A stretch of DNA of 29,059 nucleotides. Origin: a virus. Numbering within the stretch: the first letter of the stretch is position 1; the number at the start of each line of letters is the position of its first letter. Positions 26,373 through 29,059 of this stretch are shown one piece after another. Under the pieces are notes generated by a model. It was given only the letters and a program-made list of their open reading frames with translations, was not told the DNA's origin and made no database searches. The position numbers and the translations under genes are program-made. The stretch is taken from the IMG/VR virus record IMGVR_UViG_3300049216_000585, positions 1-29,059 of that record. One strand, given 5' to 3'.

Positions 26373-27638
26373 ATGGACCGTAACATCGTCTACCCCGGCA
26401 GCATTCCGCAAGACATCGACATTCTCAATCCTAACCGCAATACGATGCTTGCCCTGGGCTTTTTGATACAGGCGACATTGGGCACTGGCACAGTCGTGGA
26501 TGGTCTGGTGTGTACTCCAGCGAGCGGTTTGGCGGTGTCCGTTGGCGGCGGCAGCATCACGCAGTTGTCGACTGTCGACGCGACGAATTATGGCTCATTG
26601 GCTGCGGATACGTCTGATGCCCTGGTCAAAATGGGCATCAATATCAGCGCAACAACACTCGATCTCGCCGGGCCGTCTCTCCCGGGTCAGGCCGTGAACT
26701 ATCTGATTGAAGCAAATTTCTCTGAGTCTGACGCGTCTCCCGTAGTGCTGCCATTCGTCAATGCGGCAAACCCATCGCAACCTTTTACCGGACCAAATAA
26801 TACTGGGGCGGCGACGAATTCCCAGCGCATCCAGCGTGTCAATTTGGTAGCAGTCGCCGGGTCTGCGGCGGCGGCGGGGGCGCAAGGGACACCTTCTCCA
26901 GATTCGGGTTATGTCGGCCTCTACGTGGTGACAATTTCGTCAGGCCAGACCCAAGTCACCCAGTCTAACATCGCCACCTATCCAGGCGCACCGTTTCTTG
27001 CCTTTAAGCTGCCGCAACTGGCGCCGGGTGTGTCACGTATGGCTGTGTTTACCAGCAGCGGAAGCTGGACCGTGCCCAGCCAGGTTAGTTTGCTGAAGGT
27101 GCGGCTCTGGGGCGGCGGTGGCGCCGGCGGCAATGGTGGTGGCGCGGGGCATGTTGGTGGGGGTGGTGCAGGGGGCGCTTATGTTGAGGGATATTTTCAG
27201 GTGTCTCCAGGAAGCGTTCTGAGTGTGACGGTCGGTAGCGGAGGTGTGGTCTCTGCCAACTCAGGCAGAGGCGGTGATACAGCTTTGGGCACGCTTGCCA
27301 CGGCCGGCGGCGGTGGTGGTGGTGGTGCGGGTTCTGCTAGTGGCGTCGGGCTCGGATCGATATACCCAGGAAGTTGGGCATTGGGTAGCGCCGTCGTCGG
27401 GGGAGCCAATGTGACAGACGGGCTAGGTGGTCAAAATGGCATCGTGGCAGGCAGCACATTGATCAGCGGCCAGGGCGGCGGCGTAAACGGCGGATGTGGG
27501 GCGCTGAGTGCGGCGGGCGACGGTTCTACAAATATCTCCGGGCTCACAGCAAACGCCCCAGGGGCCGGAGGGTCTGGAGGCATTGCCTCTGGAAATGGTG
27601 GAAATGGTTCTCCAGGGCAGATCATCATTGAGTGGTGA
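26373..27638 (+). CDS. Tail fibre with polyglycine-rich receptor-binding domain
   Basis: This 421-residue protein has a GAGGG ribosome-binding site. The N-terminal 220 residues attach to the baseplate: RNIVYPGSIPQDIDILNPNR, then TPASGLAVSVGGGSITQLST and GYVGLYVVTISSGQTQVTQS. From about residue 225 comes the glycine-rich domain seen in many phage fibres, opening with VFTSSGSWTVPSQVSLLKVR and LWGGGGAGGNGGGAGHVGGG, and ending in GNGGNGSPGQIIIEW. Stacked polyglycine helices in such domains present variable loops that recognise the receptor. Position after gpI-like supports a tail fibre. I see no fibre assembly chaperone next to it. Confidence 0.82.
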   Translation: MDRNIVYPGSIPQDIDILNPNRNTMLALGFLIQATLGTGTVVDGLVCTPASGLAVSVGGGSITQLSTVDATNYGSLAADTSDALVKMGINISATTLDLAGPSLPGQAVNYLIEANFSESDASPVVLPFVNAANPSQPFTGPNNTGAATNSQRIQRVNLVAVAGSAAAAGAQGTPSPDSGYVGLYVVTISSGQTQVTQSNIATYPGAPFLAFKLPQLAPGVSRMAVFTSSGSWTVPSQVSLLKVRLWGGGGAGGNGGGAGHVGGGGAGGAYVEGYFQVSPGSVLSVTVGSGGVVSANSGRGGDTALGTLATAGGGGGGGAGSASGVGLGSIYPGSWALGSAVVGGANVTDGLGGQNGIVAGSTLISGQGGGVNGGCGALSAAGDGSTNISGLTANAPGAGGSGGIASGNGGNGSPGQIIIEW

Positions 27639-27710: not shown

Positions 27711-28160
27711 ATGGATGTGACGAGTTGGGCGACGATATTAGGTGTGGGTACAACAATCCTCGGCGTATTTTTCGCTTTCTTTCGCTTTGTCGCATCAGGG
27801 ACAGAAGCCATCCGCACAGAAATGGGCGAACAGCTTAGAATCGCTCGCAACGAGGGTGAAGCCCGCATCACGAAGATGGCGGAAACGGAAATGCGATCAC
27901 GCAACGCGATGATAGGGAACGTCACGGCCGTGACCAAAAAAATTGATGCAGACCTAGACCGGCTAAAACGCGAATCGGTGCGGCGTGAAGAGATGGCTTC
28001 TTTGGAGGCGCGGATGAATGGCATACTGATGAAAATCGAAACCAAGCTTGACTATCTTGTGGAGAAATTGGGTGATTGGAGAGGTCTTGAGGCTCAGATC
28101 AAGCTGACCGGAGAGCGCTTAGATGGCATCTCAAAGCGATTAGAACGAAATGATCTATAG
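27711..28160 (+). CDS. Membrane-anchored coiled-coil protein (possible lysis accessory)
   Basis: This 149-residue protein starts at ATG 27711 with AGAGGG upstream. One N-terminal transmembrane helix (ATILGVGTTILGVFFAFF, residues 7-24) is followed by about 110 charged residues predicted to form coiled coil, including EQLRIARNEGEARITKMAET and ETKLDYLVEKLGDWRGLEAQ. This topology fits an inner-membrane spanin-like, XhlA-like or DUF2730-like protein. Position after the tail fibre is where many phages place lysis genes. No endolysin is seen in the window, so the role stays uncertain. Confidence 0.65.
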   Translation: MDVTSWATILGVGTTILGVFFAFFRFVASGTEAIRTEMGEQLRIARNEGEARITKMAETEMRSRNAMIGNVTAVTKKIDADLDRLKRESVRREEMASLEARMNGILMKIETKLDYLVEKLGDWRGLEAQIKLTGERLDGISKRLERNDL

Positions 28161-28177: not shown

Positions 28178-29059
28178 ATGGGCCATAGCCCTGTATCGGT
28201 ATACTATAATGAAAACGACAAAGGCGCCGTCGAGTGGCTGCACACTCTCATGCGGTGGCATCTTATCCCTTCCGGCGAAATTGATGAACGAAGCATCGTT
28301 GACGTACAGCCGTCAGATCTCCGGGGGTATCAGCATGTGCATTTCTTCGCCGGGATTGGCGGTTGGGCTTATGCCGCCAGCCTTGCCAGGTGGCCACGAG
28401 AGACCCAGTTGTGGACAGTCAGTTGTCCCTGTCAGCCATTCTCTTCAGCAGGGCAAAAACGCGGCTGCGAAGACCCACGGCACCTCTGGCCGCATGTCGC
28501 TCGTCTTGTCTCGGCCAACAGACCCGCTTGCCTCGTGGGTGAACAGACTTCGAGCGCGCTGGGATATGCCTGGTTCGACGAAGTTGCCTCTGACATGGAA
28601 GCTGCATCTTACGCCTGCCGGGCGGTTGATATACCGTCTGTCGCCGTCGGGGCGCCGCACCGGCGCCAACGCCTATGGTGGGTCGCTGTCCCCCAAGACG
28701 GAGCCTGCGCTTTGGCCAACGCCACAGGCGCAAGAGGTGACGTCACGCTCAGGAAACCGCAAGGGCGAACTTCTCTTGCAAGGTCTGCTGCGCCGCACCA
28801 AGCACCAGCGGAGTTTTGGACCGGAGCCATTCTTATTGAATGCGCCGACGGCAAGCGGCGCCCTGCCAAACCCGGAATTCGCTGGTTGGCTGATGGGCTA
28901 CCCGGCGGAATGGTGCGCGTGCGGTCCGGCGACACCGACACGCCAAACGCGACACGCGAGGTAAATCGCGCAGCTCTTTGGCGCGGTTTCGGCAGTGCCG
29001 TCGTGCCGCAACTGGCAGCGGAAATACTCAGCGCGTTGCTGCAAGATGGCCTTCGCTAG
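28178..29059 (+). CDS. Phage C5-cytosine DNA methyltransferase
   Basis: This 293-residue protein transfers methyl groups to cytosine C5. Motifs in order are the N-terminal YNENDKGAVEW and RSIVDVQPSDL found in this phage group, motif I FFAGIGGW (56-63) and motif IV SCPCQPFSSAG (82-92) with catalytic Cys85. Motif VI is GEQTSS (121-126), with GEQ in place of the usual ENV, and motif VIII is GAPHRRQRLWWVA (158-170). Motif IX/X is FGSAVVPQLAAEIL (271-284). The region between motifs VIII and IX that recognises the target is short, and a CADGKRRPAKPG segment (222-233) is typical of the group. The ribosome-binding site is weak. It probably protects phage DNA from restriction. Its +1 frame is also open and conserved over most of its length. 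Confidence 0.88.
   Translation: MGHSPVSVYYNENDKGAVEWLHTLMRWHLIPSGEIDERSIVDVQPSDLRGYQHVHFFAGIGGWAYAASLARWPRETQLWTVSCPCQPFSSAGQKRGCEDPRHLWPHVARLVSANRPACLVGEQTSSALGYAWFDEVASDMEAASYACRAVDIPSVAVGAPHRRQRLWWVAVPQDGACALANATGARGDVTLRKPQGRTSLARSAAPHQAPAEFWTGAILIECADGKRRPAKPGIRWLADGLPGGMVRVRSGDTDTPNATREVNRAALWRGFGSAVVPQLAAEILSALLQDGLR
28335..28964 (+). CDS. Overlapping +1-frame protein inside the methyltransferase gene
   Basis: This frame is open from 28209 to 28964. I prefer the ATG at 28335, which has CCGGGGGT eight bases upstream, giving 209 residues. The frame shows motifs I recall from separately annotated phage proteins: NRLRARWDMPGSTKLPLTWK, LTPAGR, a GRRTG segment, WPTPQAQE, and near the end ALPNPEFAGWLMGYPAEWCA. 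These align with a widespread pattern (RLRAR, GSTLY-LTWK, TPSGR, SxRRTSG, WPTP, LNPxxxRWLMGYPPEW). Expression is not shown. It may be a genuine overprinted gene, or a conserved by-product of the methyltransferase frame. The product has no assigned function. Confidence 0.5.
   Translation: MCISSPGLAVGLMPPALPGGHERPSCGQSVVPVSHSLQQGKNAAAKTHGTSGRMSLVLSRPTDPLASWVNRLRARWDMPGSTKLPLTWKLHLTPAGRLIYRLSPSGRRTGANAYGGSLSPKTEPALWPTPQAQEVTSRSGNRKGELLLQGLLRRTKHQRSFGPEPFLLNAPTASGALPNPEFAGWLMGYPAEWCACGPATPTRQTRHAR

Follow-up and report, generated by a model that had tools for sequence, protein, structure and literature searches.

The last gene of the window, by which we mean the whole 29,059-base stretch of viral DNA analysed here, carries a second gene within it. 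In frame 0 it encodes a C5-cytosine DNA methyltransferase, referred to as alpha; in the +1 frame it encodes another protein, beta, which, judged from comparisons of related sequences, is under selection in its own right. That is, the overprinted gene is real in an evolutionary sense. We consider it likely that the locus specifies a split, M.EcoHK31I-type C5 methyltransferase made of two polypeptides, with the motif IX subunit overprinted in the +1 frame. Beta itself is best read, with good probability, as the motif IX or small-domain subunit of this enzyme; its expression and its assembly with alpha are what we infer.

Alpha (28178-29059, plus strand) is a complete ORF of 293 amino acids with motifs I-VIII and X, and its stop codon coincides with the end of the virus record. 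It matches Pfam family PF00145 above the cut-off (3e-14, residues 78-175) and PHROG family phrog_363 (5e-57), and has the hallmarks of such an enzyme: the catalytic PCQ of motif IV, motifs VI and VIII, and a large domain of the SAM-binding kind. Motif X (GSAVVPQ; 28991-29011, plus strand, frame 0) is recognized by its sequence and by a predicted helix. Beta (28209-28964, plus strand; these coordinates include the stop) occupies the +1 frame of alpha and, counted from the first ATG, has 251 codons. It matches phrog_1008, named 'DNA methyltransferase' (6e-17), as well as phrog_31772; searches of Pfam, NCBIfam and PADLOC found no family. A first-pass annotation of this DNA had proposed a second conserved protein in the +1 frame of the methyltransferase gene, and the ORF is indeed there. 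Every one of the +1 peptides that it listed, i.e., NRLRARWDM, STKLPLTWK, LTPAGR, WPTPQAQE and NPEFAGWLMGYPAEW, is found in beta. Its superposition of the two frames is correct overall, with one pair off by a residue: the counterpart of WLMGYPAEW is LADGLPGGM and not ADGLPGGMV. The neighbouring genes are of phage tail type, and no endonuclease is seen nearby. The ORF immediately upstream (27711-28160; 149 amino acids) has a hydrophobic N-terminus and a charged tail, and shows a weak match to the 'lipoprotein' family phrog_462 (2.5e-4). Farther upstream, an ORF of 421 amino acids (26373-27638) has a long glycine-rich C-terminal half, as in tail fibres.

A tblastn search with the +1 protein matched 109 phage records, all at less than 60% identity, and the places listed are mostly annotated as methyltransferases. 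The GenBank record of Escherichia phage K1G annotates both frames, the second as a 'putative Mte8-like protein' at an 88-base offset, and thus in +1; this K1G protein matches phrog_1008 at 1e-55. Both frames are also annotated in Paenibacillus phage DevRi, where the annotation bears the remark 'Not called by any program'. Most of the other phage records inspected annotate one frame only. Six phages were read over the whole gene: K1G, Cy-LDV1, ctNMl277, PHB09, epsilon15 and FoX4. Most of the gene is open in +1 in each, and they have much of RL.....GST..LTWK..TP, WPTP and NPxxxxWLMGxPxxW in common. Our literature search found no paper that describes an overprinted methyltransferase arrangement in phages; a Paenibacillus phage paper names methyltransferases, and the overlap goes without mention in the passages found.

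Viral contigs were searched with a DNA pattern for WLMG[YF]PxxW, which yielded about 120 stretches, a set chosen for the motif. Nearly all of them are the +1 frame of a methyltransferase, and no copy of beta outside methyltransferase genes was seen in this search. The first-pass annotation had counted a lack of independent homologues against an overprinted gene; this lack does not matter, because the codon-level tests suffice. Because the pattern set had been picked by motif, the main tests were redone on 160 loci selected by methyltransferase motifs alone, 80 of them viral and 80 from bacterial genome contigs of many phyla. All 160 loci have a match to the beta profile in the +1 frame. The median longest open run in this unbiased set is 276 codons in +1 and 67 in +2. 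The +1 frame is open in all relatives examined, which bears out the earlier proposal of an overprinted gene of about 630 bases.

Some individual loci show further arrangements. At L056 (2766-3680) one in-frame stop splits the methyltransferase ORF, and the +1 beta ORF is still open. L118 (133-1933) holds a tandem pair of methyltransferase copies, each with its own beta-like ORF in +1. At L338, a different C5 methyltransferase subfamily is overlain by a +1 ORF of another kind (YSLSPKACAGILRRAAKRG), whose motif recurs widely. This candidate for a second overprinted family (SPKACAGILRRA) was dropped, since the motif is mostly not over a PCQ-bearing ORF: of the 120 loci that its pattern picked (L402 onward), only 8 have it in the +1 frame of such an ORF.

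To assess selection on beta, synonymous codons were shuffled within 140 non-redundant genes and the window, while the methyltransferase protein and the codon usage were kept. The identity of the +1 columns is 0.313, against 0.220 in this null. The median beta-profile score is 226 bits, compared with 56 bits after shuffling (maximum 136), and the median for the longest open +1 run is 275 codons, compared with 131 (5% of shuffles exceed 262). Stops in the +1 frame number 516, against 822 in the shuffles. They are common upstream of alpha residue 36 and then nearly absent until past motif IX; at residue 110, for example, they occur in 0% of genes, against 43% expected. Identity is raised in the other frames as well, an increase that shared ancestry and constraint showing through would produce, but stops are not depleted there as they are in +1. 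Genes with 44-50% GC still have an open +1 frame. Synonymous choice in the methyltransferase frame of the relatives, which the first-pass annotation had suggested checking, turned out to be constrained. This constraint spans about 130 codons and tracks the +1 codons, and it keeps +1 residues such as W, P and G while +1 third positions vary.

The residues of beta that exceed the synonymous null define a conserved core (28499-28961, plus strand), with peaks at alpha residues 108-187 and 230-243. At 30 columns the +1 frame is more conserved than alpha. The W of the LTWK element (28590-28601, plus strand), at alpha residue 140, is 97% conserved, and the alpha residue there is L in 86% and M in 11%. 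The WPTP block (28713-28724, plus strand), whose repeat number varies in the family, is a candidate target-recognition region. The C-terminal element NPEFAGWLMGYPAEW (28869-28913, plus strand) is assigned to C5-methyltransferase motif IX, read in +1, from the ratio of substitutions among codon positions, from its +1 identity and from an in-frame homologue compared with M.HhaI. Across this segment, identity is 0.66 in the +1 frame and 0.47 in alpha, against 0.22 expected.

The frame that dominates evolution changes along the gene. For 65 independent pairs from the unbiased set, we calculated the ratio of substitutions at alpha codon position 3 to those at position 1. This ratio is 2.22 for alpha residues 1-34 and 2.81 for residues 35-79, and then falls to 1.86 (80-120), 1.42 (121-150), 1.18 (151-172) and 1.04 (173-228). 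In the last of these segments, the variable region, neither frame dominates. At motif IX (229-243) the ratio is 0.61 (0.49-0.75), and from residue 270 on, i.e., around motif X, it is 2.49. Because each first codon position of alpha serves as a third position in beta, residues 229-243 evolve as a beta gene, and both ends as an alpha gene.

Could these patterns arise with no second protein? GC-rich genes yield long alternative ORFs by chance, as the shuffled runs above illustrate, and the beta ORF is called by few annotation pipelines. It might therefore be argued that the +1 frame is no gene, and that its openness and conservation echo a conserved methyltransferase in GC-rich DNA. We reject this explanation as scarcely credible, because shuffles with the same protein and codon usage fall far short of the observations and because codon positions at motif IX change in the way expected of a +1 gene. 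The open +1 frame of the genes with lower GC content, and the columns at which the +1 residue is the more conserved, also speak against it. Synonymous constraint by itself is silent on what is being kept, and could in principle reflect a nucleotide-level signal, such as an RNA structure or a regulatory DNA site. That, too, is extremely improbable: the constraint is long and follows the +1 codons, stops are depleted in +1 to a much greater degree than in any other frame, and residues such as W, P and G are retained while +1 third positions vary.

The identity of the C-terminal element is central to what beta may be. NPxFxxWLMGYPxEW is the best conserved part of the protein and resembles motif IX (VMGYPDSY in M.HhaI). 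In an in-frame relative, L100, RLNPDWVEWLMGYPISWTD stands directly before motif X, and phmmer aligned this stretch to M.HhaI residues 270-318, MGYPDSY included. The alignment is short and weak alone (i-Evalue about 50), and gains meaning because the remainder of the enzyme, ahead of it, matches strongly. The assignment of beta's element to motif IX is one of resemblance, through the match of the in-frame relative to M.HhaI and not through beta itself. The enzyme of mycobacteriophage Graduation likewise carries this WLMG motif in frame, directly before motif X. A wider sample of viral C5 enzymes, picked by motif IV, contains 66 with a recognisable motif X. A fixed pattern located motif IX solely in frame 0 for 12 of these, solely in +1 for 29, and in both frames for one. 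In the 'both' case (L046) and in one frame-0 case (L309), what the pattern caught in frame 0 is the phrase PNVGRVVNGLP, which is not motif IX. Assignment by eye, which is a matter of judgement, gave about 22 enzymes with motif IX in frame 0, about 37 with it in +1, 7 that are unassignable, and none with both. Between motifs IV and X, enzymes of the frame-0 class average 9.5 stops in +1, and those of the +1 class 1.0. In the subfamily of the window, no motif IX was seen in frame 0 of alpha. Among the 66 viral C5 enzymes motif IX sits in frame 0 or in +1, and there is no convincing case of both.

Structure prediction gave different pictures for the two chains. The alpha family profile matches the M.HhaI sequence over motifs IV-VIII. 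The AlphaFold model of alpha (78 sequences) has a large domain at residues 11-170, most blocks of which score pLDDT 93-97 and fall to 75-86 in places, and a motif X helix at 277-289 (pLDDT about 93 at 281-290); Foldseek matches this model to M.HhaI and M.HaeIII. Residues 178-211 and 235-259 are mostly below pLDDT 50, and no folded small domain is predicted. The model of beta (97 sequences) is poor overall (pLDDT 62, pTM 0.27), with confident parts limited to a helix at residues 81-93, a hairpin at 103-121 and the motif IX helix at 197-203. LTWK forms the first strand of the predicted hairpin, paired with LTPAGRLIYRLS, at pLDDT 87-91. Neither a comparison of the beta model with solved structures nor a profile search of solved structures matched anything. 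Such partial confidence is what a chain that needs its partner to fold might show, without amounting to proof.

The start of beta is probably one of two ATG codons internal to alpha. The ATG at 28284-28286 (plus strand; alpha residue 36) is preceded by a weak Shine-Dalgarno sequence (-2.1), and an ATG at this position is the commonest first ATG in the family. The other, at 28335-28337 (plus strand; alpha residue 53), was the start proposed in the first-pass annotation. This ATG exists, and the GGGGGT before it contains a strong Shine-Dalgarno-like GGGGG with a computed energy of -9.9 kcal/mol. Its certainty is nevertheless lower than had been implied, for the nearest relative, L007, lacks it and shares the ATG at 28284 instead. 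Across the family, ATG frequencies at alpha residues 36, 42 and 46 are 0.48, 0.55 and 0.34, against 0.31, 0.30 and 0.21 expected; at residue 36 the Shine-Dalgarno energy is only marginally better than that of the shuffles, and at 42 and 46 it is better. An ATG precedes the beta core in 135 of 141 genes, and in 124 of the 141 one such ATG has an energy of -4 or better. The family does not share any one start codon. The excess of +1 conservation is strong only from about residue 108 (28499); the earlier part of beta is open, with a sequence that is hardly conserved.

Translation of beta from such an internal start is not the only conceivable route. Beta could instead be made as a fusion, by a programmed +1 frameshift from alpha. 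At L113 (4036-5117) a methyltransferase N-terminus is in frame with the C-terminal half of beta, and at L109 beta and motif X share one ORF behind a separate N-terminal part, as such a fusion might lead one to expect. We regard this route as unlikely. Stops in +1 are common before residue 36, ATGs are enriched where the stops cease (36, 42 and 46), most genes have an ATG with a good Shine-Dalgarno energy before the core, and the K1G and DevRi records annotate beta as a separate ORF. At L113, L098 and L121 the frames run on or switch in mid-gene, and these could be natural fusions, decay or sequencing errors. As to function, the first-pass annotation had suggested a methyltransferase partner, an inhibitor or an anti-restriction protein. 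The first of these is favoured, in the form of a motif IX or small-domain subunit, and nothing points to either of the others. An effector outside the enzyme, be it an inhibitor, an anti-restriction protein or a regulator, would agree with the lack of a Pfam or NCBIfam family for beta. Such a role is nonetheless quite improbable, given that the best conserved element of beta is a methyltransferase motif that alpha is missing, that this motif appears in one of the two frames only, that PHROG names the family 'DNA methyltransferase', and that the pattern search of viral contigs showed no beta copy outside methyltransferase genes.

In the split methyltransferase that we favour, alpha would be the product of frame 0 and form the catalytic large domain, motifs I-VIII and X included. 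Translation in +1 would probably begin internally, some 36-53 codons into the alpha gene, and make beta as a separate protein of 209-226 amino acids. Beta would consist of a helix (NRLRxR), a hairpin (LTWKxxxTPxGRxIxxL), variable WPTPxxxD blocks and motif IX (NPxFxxWLMGYPxEW). Most likely it would dock on alpha and complete the DNA-reading small domain that alpha is missing, in the manner of the small M.EcoHK31I polypeptide, and the pair would methylate the phage DNA, presumably against host restriction. A bolder version, which we hold with more doubt than conviction, is that the whole small domain, target recognition as well as motif IX, has moved to an ancient +1 gene in many phage and prophage C5 methyltransferases, and that much of the frame-0 text beneath beta may be a passenger. 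If so, these phage enzymes would change specificity through a hidden overlapping gene that most annotation misses.

Beta is a long, conserved, same-strand overprinted gene that often goes unannotated in phages, and it is probably half of a common enzyme. If motif IX is in +1 in about 37 of 66 viral C5 methyltransferases, annotation and predictions of specificity that use frame 0 only would be incomplete for them. Cloning alpha with recoded codons could silently lose beta. The locus is also an unusually clear natural case for the study of two proteins encoded by one sequence, in which dominance passes from one frame to the other along the gene.

M.EcoHK31I (YGGCCR) and M.EaeI are naturally two-polypeptide C5 methyltransferases, and M.AquI has the target CYCGRG. 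The small gene of M.EcoHK31I lies inside the large one, in another frame. M.EcoHK31I is part of a restriction-modification system, unlike the locus in the window with its tail-type neighbours. In M.EcoHK31I, motifs I-VIII and X are on the larger polypeptide, as is the predicted target-recognition domain, and motif IX is all that the smaller one has (PMC3404938); the enzyme has been called naturally split (PMC3439449). Similarly, the large chain in the window has motifs I-VIII and X, and motif IX is on a second, smaller ORF, putatively a polypeptide of its own; the likeness is one of features. In contrast to the small subunit of M.EcoHK31I, beta also has a conserved helix, a hairpin and WPTP blocks upstream of motif IX. 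Moreover, the predicted target-recognition domain of M.EcoHK31I is on its large subunit (PMC3404938), whereas that region of alpha looks disordered. M.AquI is likewise a single C5 methyltransferase made of two subunits, split unlike M.EcoHK31I (PMC3404938). Its split falls in the variable region and leaves motifs IX and X together, a layout not found in the window and resembled at L109 (1666-3343), where motifs I-VIII are in one ORF and a beta-type motif IX and motif X in a second, in +1. Beta and its relatives match both PHROG 1008 and PHROG 31772, 'DNA methyltransferase' families whose name is silent on overprinting upon another methyltransferase. M.HhaI and M.HaeIII resemble the large domain of alpha in sequence and predicted fold, but they are monomeric, with motif IX and the small domain in one chain. 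The two-polypeptide mechanism therefore has precedent; what stands out is how widely it has spread in phages and how often annotation omits it.
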